From a virus, in the IMG/VR virus record IMGVR_UViG_3300043137_000163, positions 1 to 21,178 of that record: 21,178 nt of DNA; one strand, given 5' to 3'. Of the stretch, positions 6,330-18,165 are shown piece after piece. The position numbers and the translations under genes are program-made. The first letter of the stretch is position 1, and each line of letters begins with the position of its first letter. The notes beneath the pieces were generated by a model. The model searched no databases. It was not told the origin of the DNA and saw only the letters and a program-made list of their open reading frames with translations.

Positions 6330-6770
6330 ATGAGTAGTAAATGGGTAAGTGATATTTCAGATATGCATACAAAGTTTGGCGTAAACAAAGTTTTGCGTGA
6401 ACTTGATAAAGAAAAGCTTGAAGCATTCTTGAAGTTTCGTATTGACTTCTTACAAGAAGAACTTGATGAAATGCGTAAAGCGTTAGTTGATTATCAGGTT
6501 GGCGCTGTTGATGGTCTACAAGCGGCAGACGATACAGTTGATGCTTTGATTGATTTGTGTGTGGTTGCTATTGGTACACTAGATGCATTCGATGTTGATA
6601 CAGATGAGTCTTGGAATCGTGTTCATGATAAGAACATGCAAAAGGAAGTTGGTATTAAAGCCTCTCGTCCAAATCCATTAGGTTTGCCTGATTTGATTAA
6701 GCCAGAAGGTTGGACTGCACCAATGCATCACGACAACATTGGTTTGTTATCTAAAGTGTATGGCTGTTAA
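6330..6770 (+). CDS. MazG-like all-alpha NTP pyrophosphohydrolase
   Basis: The 146-aa protein has the helical MazG / phosphoribosyl-ATP pyrophosphohydrolase signature. QEELDEM supplies the E44-x-x-E47 pair, and ADDTVDALIDLC supplies D68-x-x-D71 plus D75, expected to bind Mg2+ for cleavage of a nucleoside triphosphate to the monophosphate and pyrophosphate. The tail W..VHDKNMQKE and SRPNPLGLPDLIKPEGW resembles phage homologues in cyanophages. The ATG follows AGGAG at a good distance. The substrate is not determinable. In a phage predicted to replace cytosine, dCTP removal (the role of T4 gp56, also an all-alpha pyrophosphatase) would be useful; this is inference only. Confidence 0.8.
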   Translation: MSSKWVSDISDMHTKFGVNKVLRELDKEKLEAFLKFRIDFLQEELDEMRKALVDYQVGAVDGLQAADDTVDALIDLCVVAIGTLDAFDVDTDESWNRVHDKNMQKEVGIKASRPNPLGLPDLIKPEGWTAPMHHDNIGLLSKVYGC

Positions 6771-8210: not shown

Positions 8211-8657
8211 ATGAAATCTTGTGAACAACTTCAGCAACTTAATTCATTGCTGCTGAATTTAAACATTAATGAATTATGGTCTAATGCACAACATATTAGA
8301 ACTGTAAAATTGACTAAGAAATTTACAATTGAAGATATTGTAAATGATAGTAAATTATTTACTAAGTCGTATGGTGTTTATAAAGTAACTGTTGTTGGAT
8401 CTAAAGAAACTGCATACGTTGGAATGGCACTACGATCTAATGGCGCTCGTCGTGCTTATTCACATTTGTATTCTTTTATGAGTGGTCGTAAAACTGAATC
8501 AACTGGAAAGCATCTACGCAGTATTGTAGAGAATACTACTGATGGTGTTATTTTGACATTTGACTTTATCGATCTGACTAATACGCCATTGTTAATTTCA
8601 GCAATTGAGCAAAGATCAATTAAGCATTTTAAACCAATTATCAATTCACAAGTATGA
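8211..8657 (+). CDS. GIY-YIG family endonuclease
   Basis: The 148-aa protein has the GIY-YIG nuclease layout: YGVYKV (G55, V56, Y57), AYVGMA (Y69, V70, G71), the catalytic Arg region GARRAYSHL (R80/R81), E133 in the metal-binding helix, and KPIIN with N145. A roughly 50-residue N-terminal extension precedes the domain. T4 endonuclease II (DenA, 136 aa) has the same arrangement and cuts unmodified cytosine-containing DNA. That role would fit the adjacent hydroxymethylation genes, but free-standing homing endonucleases also use this fold. It is the first gene after the promoter and has no Shine-Dalgarno. Its stop overlaps the next start. Confidence 0.75.
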   Translation: MKSCEQLQQLNSLLLNLNINELWSNAQHIRTVKLTKKFTIEDIVNDSKLFTKSYGVYKVTVVGSKETAYVGMALRSNGARRAYSHLYSFMSGRKTESTGKHLRSIVENTTDGVILTFDFIDLTNTPLLISAIEQRSIKHFKPIINSQV

Positions 8658-9082: not shown

Positions 9083-9397
9083 ATGAAATTTGATGAAGGC
9101 AAACCACAACTCGGTTTAATTCCACCAGAAGCACTGATTAAAATTGCTACAGTGCTTGGCTTTGGCGCTGCTAAGTATGGCGTCAACAATTGGCGTGATG
9201 ATGGTGGTAACTCCCCTTGGATTCGCACTTACTCTTCAATCCAACGCCATCTAACTGCTTGGCATGCTGGCGAAGATCTTGACCCTGAATCAGGTCAGTC
9301 ACATCTTGCTCATGCAACTACACAATTAATTATTCTCATGATCCACCAAATGGAACACCCTGAATGTGATGATCGCTATAAGAAGGAAGTAAAATGA
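9083..9397 (+). CDS. dATP/dGTP diphosphohydrolase-like protein (DUF5664 type)
   Basis: The 104-aa helical protein carries the signature KFDEGKPQLGLIPPEAL, FGAAKYGVNNWR, RHLTAWHAGEDLDPESG and HLAHATTQL. This matches the MazG-related family annotated as dATP/dGTP diphosphohydrolase, N-terminal, frequent in phages. Members are thought to hydrolyse dNTPs to shape the nucleotide pool. The ATG follows the previous stop directly, and AAGGA within its 3' end serves gene 42. Together with the MazG-like gene at 6330 it is a second candidate dNTP pyrophosphohydrolase. Which dNTP it attacks here is unknown; a dCTPase-like role is possible only as speculation. Confidence 0.75.
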   Translation: MKFDEGKPQLGLIPPEALIKIATVLGFGAAKYGVNNWRDDGGNSPWIRTYSSIQRHLTAWHAGEDLDPESGQSHLAHATTQLIILMIHQMEHPECDDRYKKEVK

Positions 9398-10065
9398 TTA
9401 GAAATTATGTAGACGATATTCGTCGTGAATTTATCCATAAGCTTGAAAATGAAAAGTTTGTAACTGATAAGGGTGGTCAAATGACTATCGAAATTATCAA
9501 TGCCTCTTTCATTGCTGATGAGAATTCTATCTTTGGTGTAGTCAATGAAGACTATGTTGCTCGTGAACTTGAATGGTATCGCTCATTGTCATTGTGTGTG
9601 AATGATATTCCCGGCGGTCCACCTGCAATCTGGAAACAAGTTGCTGATAAGTATGGACGCATCAATTCAAATTATGGTTGGTGTATCTACTCTGCAGATA
9701 ACGGTCATCAGTTCTCTAAAGTTGTAAATGAACTTGTTGCATCACCACTGTCTCGTCGTGCAACTATGATTTACATTCGTCCAACAATGCATGAAGATTA
9801 TTGCCGTGATGGTATGTCTGACTTCATGTGCACCTACTCAACTCAATATTATATTCGTGATGGTAAACTGCATGCATCAGTGTTCATGAGATCTAATGAT
9901 GCAGTATATGGTTATAAGAATGATTATGCATGGCAACATTATGTACATAAAGAAGTGCTTCAAGCAGTCAATGGTCGCAGCGGTACTGTATATGGTCTTG
10001 GTGATCTTCACTGGAATGCTGGTAGCTTACATGTCTATGAACGCCACTTTGATTTAATTGCTTGA
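9394..10065 (+). CDS. 42: dCMP hydroxymethylase, gp42-like
   Basis: The 223-aa protein is a thymidylate-synthase-fold enzyme very close to T4 gp42, which makes 5-hydroxymethyl-dCMP from dCMP and methylene-tetrahydrofolate. Shared blocks include ELEWYRSLSL, INSNYGW, DGMSDFMCT with catalytic C146, and RSNDAVYGYKNDYAWQ. In the last block D177 occupies the position of the conserved Asn of thymidylate synthases; an Asp there is the known switch to dCMP. It lacks about 22 residues found at the T4 C-terminus. AAGGA at 9383-9387 is a good ribosome binding site. Its product would need an hm-dCMP kinase (T4 gp1), not seen in this window. Confidence 0.95.
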   Translation: MIRNYVDDIRREFIHKLENEKFVTDKGGQMTIEIINASFIADENSIFGVVNEDYVARELEWYRSLSLCVNDIPGGPPAIWKQVADKYGRINSNYGWCIYSADNGHQFSKVVNELVASPLSRRATMIYIRPTMHEDYCRDGMSDFMCTYSTQYYIRDGKLHASVFMRSNDAVYGYKNDYAWQHYVHKEVLQAVNGRSGTVYGLGDLHWNAGSLHVYERHFDLIA

Positions 10066-10066
10066 T

Positions 10067-10513
10067 ATGAAAGAAACTAAGTGGGCTAATCGTTATATGT
10101 CTATGGCGAAAGAAGTTTCGTCATGGTCTAAAGACCCTAACACTAAGATTGGCGCAATCGCTGTAGGGTCTAAAGGTCAAATCTTGTCACAGGGATTTAA
10201 TGGTTTCCCACGTGGTATTTTTGATTTTGAAGATCGTCTAAACGATAGAGAAACAAAGTACAAATACGTAGTTCATGCTGAAATGAATGTCATATATAAT
10301 GCTACGTATTCTGGAATATCTTTAGACGGCGCTAAGCTTTTTGTTTATGGGTTACCTGTTTGTAGTGAATGCTGTAAAGGCGTCATTCAAGTGGGTATTA
10401 GTGAAGTCTATATCTCAGAAGAATGTTTAAATCTGCGACCACATTGGCATGAGTCATGGTTGCAATCTGCTGAGATGTTCAGCGAAGCAAATGTAAAGGT
10501 GTATGTAATATGA
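10067..10513 (+). CDS. cd: dCMP deaminase
   Basis: The 148-aa zinc enzyme converts dCMP to dUMP. The catalytic set is H70-A-E72 in VVHAEMNVIYNA and C99/C102 in PVCSECC; GFNGFPRG contributes to the substrate pocket, as in other dCMP deaminases. It is shorter than T4 Cd (193 aa) but of normal bacterial size. The reading frame is open from a TTG at 10058, but the ATG at 10067, one base after the gene 42 stop, is the natural start. It draws on the same dCMP pool as gp42, and its dUMP feeds ThyX encoded at 16535. The last codons contain AAAGGTG, the ribosome binding site for agt. Confidence 0.93.
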   Translation: MKETKWANRYMSMAKEVSSWSKDPNTKIGAIAVGSKGQILSQGFNGFPRGIFDFEDRLNDRETKYKYVVHAEMNVIYNATYSGISLDGAKLFVYGLPVCSECCKGVIQVGISEVYISEECLNLRPHWHESWLQSAEMFSEANVKVYVI

Positions 10514-11715
10514 AAATCGCAATCATTATGGGACGTGGCATTGAAGGATGTGGCGTAACTAAGTTTACTGTAGAGCAAACTAAATGGTTAGCAAAGAATG
10601 GATATGACTTCACAGTCTTTTCATCAAAAGACAAGTCGTGGACTCGTAAGAATGCTCATGATGTTTCTAATGTTATCCAATTGAAGTTGGCCAAAGCAGA
10701 CGAAGCACAAAAGATGATTGATGGCTGTAATGAAGCTGATGTAGTTATCATTAACAGTCTTCCATCTTTGTCACATCCAGAAGCAGCTATTGAGCAATTC
10801 AAGCGTGCTCTCAAGGAAATTAAAAAGCCAGTTGTATTGATTCAACATGATCACTCTTCATTGTCTATTAAGCGTAACGCTTGTATTGAAGAAGCTGTTA
10901 AGAAATCTGACATCTTGTTTGGTCACTCAGATACTAACGATTTTGCACGATATGTTACAGAGGTAACTGCATCTGGTCTTGATTCATTCATGGGTGGTGA
11001 TGATACTAGTAAGACTATTCTTAACTTCCAGCCAGGCATTGATTTTGCTTCAGTACGTTCTAAGTATTGGAAAGATATCGCTGAGCAAGATGAACTCCAC
11101 AATAAGTGGATTGGACGTACTACAAGTTGGAAAGGTTACAAACAAATGTTTGCATTCCACAATCAGTACTTACGTCCTAATGGTTATATTACTACCTTTG
11201 AAGGTATTGAAAAGTCACCAGCATATCTTGCTTTCCGTGAACTATCAGAGTTCCATGGCTTGATTGATAAAGATATTGCTACATCTTCAATTGCAATCAA
11301 TCAACCAGCATATGTGTTTGGACCGTATGTTAATGAGCAAATGCTTGAACGTATGTCAAAGGTTGCGTTTGGTTATCAACTCTCTTTGTTAGATGAGCGA
11401 TTCATCCAACGATCAATTGAATATACACATTGTGAACTTGCTGCAGTTGGTGTAGTACCAGTCTTCCGTAAAGCTTATGGCGAACGTTGTACTCATCGTG
11501 CTCAAGGTAAAAAGTTTATTGATTGTAAAGATACTGGAACGATTTGGCTTGATGATAACGATATGCAACCAGCCTTTGACGTACTAGATAAATTATCTAA
11601 AGACCGTGGAATGCGTAATGAGTATCGTGAAATGGCTTATGAATTCTATAAGTCACACCAAGATGCAGAACATACATTCAGTGAAATGATGACTCTTATT
11701 AAAGAAAGACTATGA
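10510..11715 (+). CDS. agt: DNA alpha-glucosyltransferase, T4 AGT homologue
   Basis: The 401-aa protein matches T4 AGT (400 aa) along its length. The N-terminal strand and loop are IIMGRGIEGCGVTKFT (T4 has a nearly identical segment). It also has IQHDHSSLSIKRN, NKWIGRTTSWKGYKQMF, LERMSKVAFGYQLS, YTHCELAAVGVVPVF and WLDDNDM. AGT is a GT-B enzyme that transfers glucose from UDP-glucose to 5-hydroxymethylcytosine in DNA, shielding it from host restriction. With gene 42 two genes upstream this predicts glucosylated hmC DNA. The start overlaps the cd stop as ATGA and the stop overlaps the MTase-like gene in the same way. The linkage (alpha) is inferred from homology; the sugar is not proven. Confidence 0.95.
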   Translation: MKIAIIMGRGIEGCGVTKFTVEQTKWLAKNGYDFTVFSSKDKSWTRKNAHDVSNVIQLKLAKADEAQKMIDGCNEADVVIINSLPSLSHPEAAIEQFKRALKEIKKPVVLIQHDHSSLSIKRNACIEEAVKKSDILFGHSDTNDFARYVTEVTASGLDSFMGGDDTSKTILNFQPGIDFASVRSKYWKDIAEQDELHNKWIGRTTSWKGYKQMFAFHNQYLRPNGYITTFEGIEKSPAYLAFRELSEFHGLIDKDIATSSIAINQPAYVFGPYVNEQMLERMSKVAFGYQLSLLDERFIQRSIEYTHCELAAVGVVPVFRKAYGERCTHRAQGKKFIDCKDTGTIWLDDNDMQPAFDVLDKLSKDRGMRNEYREMAYEFYKSHQDAEHTFSEMMTLIKERL

Positions 11716-12917
11716 CAATTAAACATGCAAGTATCGTCCCGTTAATTGGTGGACAAACCTTGGGACAAGAGAAAGCTATGGGAAGTCGGCCTGAATGGCT
11801 GGCTTCTTTTGAAGCCTTTGCCTCCAATGATTCACATGCAGTGAATCACTATAAAGACCTTCCATATTACGTTATGGATAAAGGTACACACTCTCCAAGT
11901 AAAGTAAATGTCATCTCGACGACTTGCCCATGCGCAGGTCTGTCGTCGTTATCTGCAGGTGCTTCTTCTGATGCTGCTGCAAATGATTGGATGTATAAGA
12001 CTGCTGAATTAGTTTTAGGTACATGGAAACCAGATGTGTTCTGGGGAGAGAATGCACCAGGGTTTGCTGGCAAGGTAGGCAAACCAGTCGTAGAGAAACT
12101 GCATGCAATTGCTAAAGAGCATGGTTATGTAATGTCAATCTATCGTACAAAATCTCAGCTTCATGGAATTCCACAAATTCGTGAACGTTCATTCTACTTT
12201 TTCTGGCGTGGTACTCGCGCACCAGTCTTCAACTTCTACAAGAAACCATGGACACGCATTGAAGACCTTATTGCCAATATGCCACAGAACTTAACTCAAC
12301 ATACTGTGACTAATGACAAAATTCCAACAAAGACTGATCCTTGGTATCGTTATGTGCTTGAGAAGATGGAAGGTGGAATCTCACATCGAGAGTTTTTCGA
12401 CAAGATTGAAAAGACTGATAACGCGATGGACTGGGTAGAACGTAACAATGTTTCGTATCTAGAAGTAGGTAAATGGATGGCAGAGAATAACTATCCAAAC
12501 ATTGAAGCACGTTGTAAACGTATTCATGAGAAGTTAGGTCGCGGTGAAAATATCATGCGCAGATTGACTACCATTCCAAAGAATTACATTGGTGCTTTCG
12601 TTGGTCACTATCCAACTATGCTAACTCATCCTTATGAAGACAGATACATAACTTATAGGGAAGCAATGACAATCATGGGATTGCCTCATGACTTCGAGTT
12701 GTTAAACCCTAAGGCAAACTTGAACCACATCTGTCAAAACGTGCCAGTAGGTACCGCTTCAGACATGGCGTTCGAGATTAAAGAATTCCTTGAAGGTCGC
12801 AGAGATACAGTCGATGCAACAGATAGAATTCTTTTACAATACAACCACAGTGAATCTCAGGACTTCAGAGATATGATTGAAGTTCCAAAAGCTTCACTAG
12901 ATGGTTTCTTCCTGTAA
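11712..12917 (+). CDS. C5-cytosine methyltransferase-like protein
   Basis: The 401-aa protein has the C5-MTase motif order. A divergent motif I is at the N-terminus (SIVPLIGGQTLG). Motif IV is TCPCAGLSSLS with the putative catalytic Cys in PC, motif VI is WGENAPGF (EN pair), motif VIII is GIPQIRER (QxRxR), and motif X-like is VPVGTASDMAF at the C-terminus. A target-recognition region would occupy roughly 170-330. It is translationally coupled to agt through ATGA. Canonical enzymes have PCQ and a FxGxG motif I, so this is a divergent subfamily. Activity on cytosine would be surprising if the phage replaces cytosine with hmC. No cognate restriction endonuclease gene adjoins it. Confidence 0.8.
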   Translation: MTIKHASIVPLIGGQTLGQEKAMGSRPEWLASFEAFASNDSHAVNHYKDLPYYVMDKGTHSPSKVNVISTTCPCAGLSSLSAGASSDAAANDWMYKTAELVLGTWKPDVFWGENAPGFAGKVGKPVVEKLHAIAKEHGYVMSIYRTKSQLHGIPQIRERSFYFFWRGTRAPVFNFYKKPWTRIEDLIANMPQNLTQHTVTNDKIPTKTDPWYRYVLEKMEGGISHREFFDKIEKTDNAMDWVERNNVSYLEVGKWMAENNYPNIEARCKRIHEKLGRGENIMRRLTTIPKNYIGAFVGHYPTMLTHPYEDRYITYREAMTIMGLPHDFELLNPKANLNHICQNVPVGTASDMAFEIKEFLEGRRDTVDATDRILLQYNHSESQDFRDMIEVPKASLDGFFL

Positions 12918-16406: not shown

Positions 16407-16545
16407 GGTATGCTATTACACAAATAGCAATGAAAGTAGTGTAACTACAAAGGTCTTTGAGTCTTATGAGGAAGCAATCAAATTTGCTGATAAGGTTCCA
16501 ACTGGTGATGTTTTAGAAATTAAGAGGATTGAAAATGGAAGTTAA
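16390..16545 (+). CDS. Small hypothetical protein, 51 aa
   Basis: The ATG at 16390 lies nine bases after GGAG (16377-16380) and inside the end of the previous gene. The protein is MSRKYKVCYYTNSNESSVTT followed by KVFESYEEAIKFADKVPTGD and a short strand. A strand, an acidic helix (SYEEAIKFADKV) and a final strand suggest a small alpha/beta unit like many phage-encoded host-interaction peptides. No family is recognised. The AAGAGGA ribosome binding site of thyX is within its last codons. Confidence 0.6.
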   Translation: MSRKYKVCYYTNSNESSVTTKVFESYEEAIKFADKVPTGDVLEIKRIENGS

Positions 16546-17209
16546 ATTAGTATCATATAGTAAACCATCACGTGAGTTTTATTCAGAAGGTCTTTTAGAT
16601 GTTCAGGATTTGATTGCCTTTTGTGCACGTGTATCAAATCCATCTAATCAATTGAATGCAGGCACTGCAGATAAGCTTATTCGTTATTTGATTAAGCACC
16701 AACATTGGTCACCATTAGAAATGGTTTCTGCTTGTATTGAGATTGAAACGACACGTGATATTGCTCGTCAAATTTTACGTCATCGTTCATTCTCATTCCA
16801 AGAGTTCTCACAACGATATGCAGATCCAACTAAAGACTTAGATTTTGTACTTCGTGAAGCACGCTTGCAGGATACAAAGAATCGTCAGAATTCTATTGAG
16901 ACTGATGATGTTGAATTGCAAGTTTGGTGGGATGCTAAACAAAAGTTCTTAATTGATTATGTTCGTGAAACGTATGCTCAAGCGATTGAAAAGGGTATTG
17001 CTAAAGAACAAGCACGTTCAATCTTACCAGAAGGTAATACTGTAAGCCGTATGTACATGAATGGTACATTGCGTTCTTGGATTCACTTTATTCAATTGCG
17101 TGCTGGTAATGGTACTCAAAAAGAACACCGTGAAGTAGCATTAGCATGTGCTAAAGTTATTGCTGAAATCTTCCCAATGGCTACAGAGTTAGTTACATGC
17201 GAATCTTAA
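16535..17209 (+). CDS. thyX: Flavin-dependent thymidylate synthase ThyX
   Basis: The 224-aa protein carries the ThyX signature RHRxxSxxxxSxR exactly, as RHRSFSFQEFSQR at residues 82-94. It also has the flavin/nucleotide-binding blocks HQHWSPLEM and LRSWIHFIQLRAGNGTQKEHREVA. ThyX methylates dUMP to dTMP using FAD and NADPH and releases tetrahydrofolate. The ATG at 16535 follows AAGAGGA by six bases and is preferred over the TTG at 16529. It replaces the T4 td enzyme in function. dUMP would come partly from the dCMP deaminase at 10067. Its stop overlaps the epimerase start. Confidence 0.96.
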   Translation: MEVKLVSYSKPSREFYSEGLLDVQDLIAFCARVSNPSNQLNAGTADKLIRYLIKHQHWSPLEMVSACIEIETTRDIARQILRHRSFSFQEFSQRYADPTKDLDFVLREARLQDTKNRQNSIETDDVELQVWWDAKQKFLIDYVRETYAQAIEKGIAKEQARSILPEGNTVSRMYMNGTLRSWIHFIQLRAGNGTQKEHREVALACAKVIAEIFPMATELVTCES

Positions 17210-18165
17210 TCACAGGAGGCTTAGGCCTTATTGGACATAATGTTGTTAAGAGATTGAAAGCCAATCATGATCTATTGATCGTTGATACCATGACTAATTA
17301 TGGTATCATCCCTCAAGATCAAATGACCTACTTGTTCAATCAACGATTGCAAAAGATTGAAACACCGCGTGATCCATTGAATATTCGTGTGGTGGACATT
17401 GCTGATCGTCAGGTGATGCGTGAAATCTACAAAGATTTTAAACCTGAGATTGTTATGCACTTAGCAAGCTTTCCTCGTCAAAAGGTTGTTAATGCTAACC
17501 CTCAACTTGGCTCAAAGACTATGTCAGAAGGTTTGTTAAACCTATGTGAATTGTCTGAAGAGTTTAAAGTAGAGAAGTTCTTATACATTAGTTCATCAAT
17601 GGTATATGGCGAATTTACTCATTGTATTAAAGAAGATGAACCATGCTATCCAGAAGGTCAGTATGGAATTATGAAACTTGCAGGAGAATGGCTTGTTAAA
17701 GATTATGCTCGTCGTAACGCTTTTAGTTACACTATTATACGCCCCAGTGCTGTATACGGTGAACTCGACGTGGAAGATCGAGTCATCTCTAAGTTCTTAC
17801 TAACAGCAATGCGTGGTGGAACACTAAAGGTTAATGGCATTAAAGAAGTGTTAGACTTCACGTATGTTGAAGATGCTGCTGATGGAATTGTTGCTGCTAC
17901 ACTAAGTGAGAACACTCATAACAAAACTTACAACATTACTAAAAGTCATAGCGTAAGTTTGTATGATGCTGCTGAGATGGCTGTCAAACTTGCAGGTAAA
18001 GGTGACATTGAAGTTCGTGATAAAGATGCAGACTTTCCAAGTCGTGGTGCATTAGATATCTCAGCTGCTCGTCGAGACTTTGGATATGATCCAAAAGTAG
18101 ACGTTGAAGAAGGCTTTGAAAAGTATTACTTTTGGTTAAAGAATTCTTCTTACTTTAACAAATAA
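17197..18165 (+). CDS. NAD-dependent nucleotide-sugar epimerase/dehydratase (extended SDR)
   Basis: The 322-aa protein is an extended short-chain dehydrogenase. It has the N-terminal GGLGLIG Rossmann motif (G7/G10/G13), the Asp-containing VDTMTNYG end of strand 2, ISSSMVYGE with the catalytic Ser region, and Y156-x3-K160 in QYGIMKLAGE. The C-terminal half has RPSAVYGE and DFTYVEDAADGI, typical of UDP-glucose 4-epimerase relatives. It could make a modified nucleotide sugar for surface or DNA glycosylation; the substrate cannot be read from sequence. It is coupled to thyX by a 13-base overlap and ends 20 bases before a strong terminator. A possible metabolic link to AGT is only inference. Confidence 0.88.
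   Translation: MRILITGGLGLIGHNVVKRLKANHDLLIVDTMTNYGIIPQDQMTYLFNQRLQKIETPRDPLNIRVVDIADRQVMREIYKDFKPEIVMHLASFPRQKVVNANPQLGSKTMSEGLLNLCELSEEFKVEKFLYISSSMVYGEFTHCIKEDEPCYPEGQYGIMKLAGEWLVKDYARRNAFSYTIIRPSAVYGELDVEDRVISKFLLTAMRGGTLKVNGIKEVLDFTYVEDAADGIVAATLSENTHNKTYNITKSHSVSLYDAAEMAVKLAGKGDIEVRDKDADFPSRGALDISAARRDFGYDPKVDVEEGFEKYYFWLKNSSYFNK

Follow-up and report, generated by a model that had tools for sequence, protein, structure and literature searches.

Several described systems are close to the locus analyzed here. In phage T4, glucosylated hydroxymethylcytosine (hmC) is produced with the help of the dCMP hydroxymethylase gp42 and the DNA alpha-glucosyltransferase (AGT). In the phage TET pathway, 5mC and then hmC are made on the DNA. 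A further reference point is provided by the canonical C5-methyltransferases of family PF00145, such as M.HhaI, M.HaeIII, and DNMT1. The positions A19, G20, E40, G303, and N304 (M.HhaI numbering) are established SAM contacts in M.HhaI and DNMT1, with Glu40 touching the SAM ribose. Apart from methyl transfer, C5-methyltransferases catalyze the exchange of the hydroxyl group for thiols and the addition of formaldehyde, the latter being a reversal of dehydroxymethylation. The stripping of the hydroxymethyl group from hmC by C5-methyltransferases without SAM has been discussed with supporting data (PMC11347137).

The stretch of DNA under study (the window) is the 21,178-base record of an uncultured virus, a T4-like phage with homologues of DNA polymerase, UvsX, a DnaB-type helicase, and a clamp-loader protein. 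In common with T4, the window encodes homologues of dCMP hydroxymethylase, dCMP deaminase, and AGT, the first two upstream of AGT and of a gene resembling C5-methyltransferases (MTase-like gene):

6330 to 6770, plus strand: MazG/PRA-PH-type NTP pyrophosphohydrolase (PF01503, E = 5.6e-07)
9083 to 9397, plus strand: dATP/dGTP diphosphohydrolase N-terminal-type protein (PF18909, E = 6.8e-29)
9394 to 10065, plus strand: dCMP hydroxymethylase, gp42 homologue
10058 to 10513, plus strand: dCMP deaminase (PF00383, E = 3.4e-17; phrog_174, E = 1e-39)
10510 to 11715, plus strand: DNA alpha-glucosyltransferase (AGT; PF11440, E = 5.8e-101; 45% identity to T4/T6 AGT), with a 4-bp overlap with the MTase-like gene
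11712 to 12917, plus strand: C5-cytosine-methyltransferase-like gene, 401 amino acids (PF00145, AlphaFold2 model, and Foldseek)

The thymidylate-synthase-like ORF at 9394-10065 aligned along its whole length with T4 gp42. Its best phage match was the dCMP hydroxymethylase of Citrobacter phage Moon (62%), and it carries the Asp of T4 gp42 at the position where thymidylate synthase has Asn. The assignment as a gp42 homologue in the earlier note was thus confirmed, as was the overlap with a T4 AGT homologue: the ATG of the MTase-like ORF overlaps the TGA of the AGT ORF as ATGA. We infer that the pyrophosphohydrolase is a candidate dCTPase. In T4, unlike in the window, a homologue of the MTase-like gene was absent within the reach of our tblastn search. 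T-even phages make glucosyl-hmC without this gene, which is therefore not generally needed for that modification.

Three further genes of the window deserve mention. A ThyX is encoded at 16529-17209 (PF02511, E = 6.5e-45); since no gene with a thymidylate-synthase fold was seen other than the dCMP-type one, ThyX seems to have taken over thymidylate synthesis. An NAD-dependent nucleotide-sugar epimerase at 17197-18165 (PF01370, phrog_540) possibly supplies another sugar nucleotide. The ORF at 8211-8657 showed a weak match, below the curated cut-off, to the Eco29kI restriction endonuclease family and might encode a homing or host-DNA nuclease.

The MTase-like ORF matched PF00145 with 56.6 bits (cut-off 22; E = 3.6e-15) and the phrog_116 DNA methyltransferases with E = 3.9e-22. 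As the earlier note had stated, it contains the C5-methyltransferase motif set, with TCPCAGLS (motif IV), GENAP (motif VI), and QIRER (motif VIII), and a divergent motif I, which reads IVPLIGG and not DLFxGxGG. To place these residues in a family context, 127 unique family members were aligned with M.HhaI, whose sequence was checked against the PDB, and with 26 further canonical enzymes from bacterial genomes. Residue numbers refer to M.HhaI unless a residue of the window protein is given. The features of the window protein are as follows:

11736 to 11753, plus strand: former motif I, residues 9-14, VPLIGG (canonical F-x-G-x-G-G); A19 replaced by Pro and G20 by Leu in 127/127 members
11805 to 11807, plus strand: Ser32, which takes the place of the motif II acid (M.HhaI Glu40); Ser or Thr in all 127 family members, Glu or Asp in all 27 canonical enzymes
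11928 to 11933, plus strand: motif IV, Pro73-Cys74, with the predicted C6 nucleophile; Cys in 127/127, Pro in 126/127
12048 to 12053, plus strand: motif VI, Glu113-Asn114; 127/127
12174 to 12188, plus strand: motif VIII, Gln155-Ile-Arg157-Glu-Arg159; both Arg in 127/127
12219 to 12611, plus strand: middle region, approximately residues 170-300, apparently replacing a target-recognition domain of known type; predicted mostly alpha-helical by DSSP of the model
12732 to 12746, plus strand: motif X, Cys341-Gln342-Asn-Val-Pro345 (canonical G-N-x-V-P); G303 replaced by Cys in 126/127, N304 by Gln in 127/127

The alignment revealed a clear division. The fold and motifs IV, VI, and VIII are common to the window family and canonical C5-methyltransferases: the equivalents of C81, E119, N120, R163, and R165 were identical in all 127 members, and that of P80 in 126. 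Unlike in the canonical enzymes, however, motif I, the motif II acid, and the Gly-Asn pair of motif X are replaced by other, fixed residues. The earlier note was right about motif I but understated the change. Within the canonical set, G20 was kept in 27/27 sequences, E40 in 26/27 (the exception being Asp), and N304 in 26/27 (the exception being a gap). G22, G23, and V306 are retained in the family. The D60 column differs as well, although the alignment is less sure there because an invariant Asp lies two residues off. Moreover, the N-terminal region contains the invariant polar residues Asn39, His42, and Asp56. As judged from the alignment and the structural model described below, the MTase-like protein has a C5-methyltransferase fold in which the predicted residues for C6 attack and N3 protonation are invariant, while the predicted SAM-holding residues are replaced by other invariant ones.

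The replacements do not point to decay. Comparison with relatives of 80-87% identity yielded dN/dS values of approximately 0.03-0.07, a sign of strong purifying selection. These values, the intact ORFs, and the invariant catalytic residues ruled out a decayed pseudogene. Since the pocket replacements are fixed, they point to a re-specialized pocket. A missing N-terminus hiding a normal motif I was likewise rejected: in most loci, the 4-bp overlap with the upstream gene fixes the position of the start codon, and the longer N-termini of the isolates XG4 and S-TIM54 also lack DLFxGxG.

Because the machinery for C6 attack is invariant while the methyl-donor site has been rebuilt, ordinary methylation can no longer be taken for granted. 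The protein might nevertheless be a SAM-dependent C5-methyltransferase with a diverged pocket, which methylates residual cytosines or host DNA and shields residual sites from host restriction. Its fold, its catalytic residues, and its overall homology are those of PF00145, and cleaning up residual cytosines would be an advantage whichever sugar is attached, in agreement with the constant pairing described below. Since divergent SAM pockets do exist and G22, G23, and V306 are retained, the residues alone are not decisive against SAM binding, a point that counts against the SAM-independent reading favored below. On the other hand, at the five positions for SAM contact, 126-127 of the 127 members share other, invariant residues, whereas canonical enzymes almost always keep G20, E40, and N304, and the substrate should be scarce once dCTP is replaced. 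On balance, we consider an ordinary methyltransferase rather unlikely.

To obtain structural information, an AlphaFold2 model was built on a 31-sequence alignment (pLDDT 89.1, pTM 0.87). The catalytic loop 76-84 was modeled with low confidence. The best PDB matches in Foldseek were C5-methyltransferases (M.HaeIII, M.HhaI, DNMT1, and MET1), with E values down to 2e-13 among the matches listed. The query-normalized TM-scores against these PDB structures were only 0.5-0.6, probably owing to the middle region, which is predicted to be mostly helical. A PDB sequence search with residues 168-300 gave no match at E ≤ 1. The window protein thus also appears to differ from canonical C5-methyltransferases in its middle region, which is predicted to be helical and showed no resemblance in sequence to a target-recognition domain in the PDB.

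Among the fold matches was 8yf3, a C5-methyltransferase that uses carboxy-SAM. This raises the question of whether the rebuilt pocket holds another one-carbon or group donor, such as a SAM derivative, methylene-folate, or a thiol or amine nucleophile, with which the enzyme would write a new group at C5. The substituted residues are fixed rather than drifting, and Asn39, His42, and Asp56 lie in the same N-terminal region, as would suit such a pocket. However, 8yf3 is not close to the family (16% identity) and shows only that the fold allows donor changes. We regard a different donor as very improbable.

The best viral structural match was gp301 of Bacillus phage G (TM-score 0.77), annotated as a DNA cytosine methyltransferase, which the family profile also matched (E = 4e-35). 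Like the window family, gp301 has an altered motif I and the Asn-to-Gln exchange in motif X. Unlike the window family, with which it shares approximately 20% identity, it keeps the motif II Glu, and its motif I reads FIFGGS instead of VPLIGG. On the basis of its sequence, gp301 may be an intermediate. As phage G retains this Glu, a loss of SAM binding need not hold across the superfamily. In the phage G genome (JN638751), positions 219303-234494 encode, within approximately 15 kb, gp301, the AGTs gp306 and gp313, a sugar nucleotidyltransferase, the dCMP deaminase gp317, and the dCMP-type thymidylate-synthase-like gp319. This cluster predicts glycosylated hmC in phage G DNA.

To determine how widespread the gene is, viral contigs were scanned with the window protein, which yielded 188 confirmed loci, and with a family profile, which yielded at least 584. 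Bacterial genome bins contributed ten further loci, which mostly had the same hydroxymethylase neighborhood. Among cultured phages, tblastn retrieved only six records, namely the cyanophages S-TIM5 (two records), S-TIM54, S-TIM61, and S-TIM66, and Pseudoalteromonas phage XG4. For comparison, 627 phage records contain AGT and 1283 a hydroxymethylase-like gene. Literature searches on such a family and on phage G, restricted to openly licensed papers, returned no description of the family. We conclude that the gene belongs to a large and apparently undescribed family with a cofactor pocket unlike that of every canonical member examined.

The genomic context was analyzed for 130 unique loci, and hydroxymethylase counts were restricted to the 53 with at least 6 kb of upstream sequence. 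The hydroxymethylase was detected by tblastn in 51 of these 53, and the two exceptions, S-TIM5 and S-TIM54, have a neighboring "ThyA" with the dCMP-type Asp. Hence, all 53 loci contain a dCMP-type (Asp, not Asn) homologue of thymidylate synthase, and the pattern that would have spoken against the earlier note, homologues mostly in phages without genes 42 and agt, was not observed. The Asp was present in all 140 readable hydroxymethylase genes (loci not made unique; one more gene was unreadable). A MazG/PRA-PH pyrophosphohydrolase homologue accompanied the family in 43/53 loci. The MTase-like gene followed AGT within 1 kb in 108 of the 110 AGT loci with room downstream, a set that was not made unique and was seeded in part by the MTase-like gene; an independently AGT-seeded set gave the same order. 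We predict that hmC is made at the nucleotide level in these phages, in contrast to the phage TET pathway. No TET/JBP match was found in 18 records, a weak argument against the TET pathway, since the control genomes gave no positive either. The TET pathway likewise has a C5-methyltransferase-type gene beside glycosyltransferases, and some of those beside the genes of the window family are of the TAGT type.

The S-TIM5 and S-TIM54 proteins, annotated as "DNA methylase", are also family members, with 30% identity across 93-99% of the protein length. Unlike in the window, their genes do not form an operon with AGT, a distant relative of which is encoded elsewhere in the genome. The S-TIM5 gene at 140905-141741 (JQ245707), annotated as ThyA, encodes Asp instead of the Asn of thymidylate synthase, and its product is therefore probably a dCMP hydroxymethylase or methylase.

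The partner on the other side of the start codon is far less constant. The exact 4-bp ATGA overlap with the upstream gene was found in 102/130 unique loci. Among 123 loci, however, the genes directly upstream formed 13 unrelated groups, most of which encode glycosyltransferases or nucleotide-sugar enzymes. Besides AGT (58/123 loci), they include GT4, TAGT (the beta-glucosyl-hmC alpha-glucosyltransferase type), UDP-galactopyranose mutase, UDP-glucose dehydrogenase, a sugar epimerase, cytidylyl- and nucleotidyltransferases, and a GT47-like protein. On a quick tree, parsimony required approximately 28 changes of the upstream class, the minimum possible being 12. With AGT upstream in less than half of the loci, we rejected it as an obligate partner. 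The 42-type gene was present in every locus with at least 6 kb of upstream sequence, whereas AGT itself is not required and is often replaced by other sugar genes. As far as gene neighborhoods indicate, the MTase-like gene travels with the dCMP hydroxymethylase, directly behind a predicted sugar-transfer or sugar-activation gene, whichever sugar is involved. Since the gene stays constant while the adjoining sugar genes are exchanged, its product likely acts on hydroxymethylcytosine or the replaced cytosine, not on the sugar.

The start-stop overlap directly behind a sugar gene could also indicate a base-flipping partner or reader without turnover, which flips or covalently holds hmC for the adjacent glycosyltransferase or marks sites. 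The altered cofactor pocket and a middle region seemingly unlike known target-recognition domains would agree with such a role. However, the Cys, the Glu-Asn pair, and the two Arg do not vary among the 127 members, which goes beyond the needs of pure binding, and the partner genes come from many unrelated families, which argues against a fitted protein complex. We therefore deem a non-catalytic partner improbable.

Given the split between retained base-attack residues and replaced pocket residues, together with the precedent of SAM-free hmC dehydroxymethylation, we favor a SAM-independent reaction at C5 over these three alternatives, albeit with slightly less than even confidence. The MTase-like protein would be a dedicated enzyme of hmC-hypermodification cassettes that attacks C6 of cytosine or hydroxymethylcytosine in the phage DNA. 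It would act after replication and probably before glycosylation, flipping a cytosine-family base out of the phage DNA so that Cys74 could add to C6. The C5 substituent would then be changed without an ordinary methyl transfer from SAM. The best chemical precedent would be the reversible C5 hydroxymethyl reaction of C5-methyltransferases without SAM, in which hmC is converted to cytosine and formaldehyde or vice versa. The enzyme might thereby remove hmC from selected sites, finish the conversion of residual cytosines to hmC, or substitute another group for the 5-CH2OH. Two further points weigh against this reading: free formaldehyde is a poor donor in the cell, and T-even phages produce glucosyl-hmC without a gene of this kind. 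More tentatively, a C5-methyltransferase-fold enzyme may have given up SAM altogether and act on hydroxymethylcytosine itself by removing, completing, or replacing its 5-CH2OH group, as an unchanging partner of sugar modules that vary. The puzzle of an already occupied position 5 raised in the earlier note and its suggestion of a repurposed enzyme are both strengthened by the tie to hmC cassettes, the rebuilt pocket, and the intact base-attack residues; the new base chemistry itself is what we infer.

Should the family act on hydroxymethylcytosine without SAM, phage DNA hypermodification would gain an enzyme class, reactions known to date from in vitro work would have a natural use, and a possible tool for editing hmC in DNA would become available. 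It would also explain why one gene is fixed beside repeatedly exchanged sugar genes. Even an ordinary methyltransferase would belong to a large, apparently undescribed family with a divergent cofactor pocket. Among cultured phages, hmC chemistry is to be expected in three: cyanophage S-TIM5, Pseudoalteromonas phage XG4, and Bacillus phage G.

The exchanged genes themselves provided additional observations. Two large families without assigned function, phrog_13881 and phrog_14998, occupy the glycosyltransferase slot (L042:8925-9992 and L066:6056-7150) and are candidate new DNA sugar transferases. The predicted fold of phrog_13881, the second most common upstream protein (pLDDT 79.5), gave ambiguous Foldseek results, with weak matches to esterases and T4 BGT, and its role in sugar transfer is a guess. 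Finally, genes resembling myo-inositol-1-phosphate synthase lie within hmC cassettes at L100:5967-7259, identified by a Pfam match, and at L102:6236-7528, identified by a similar start, hinting at an inositol-type decoration of the base.
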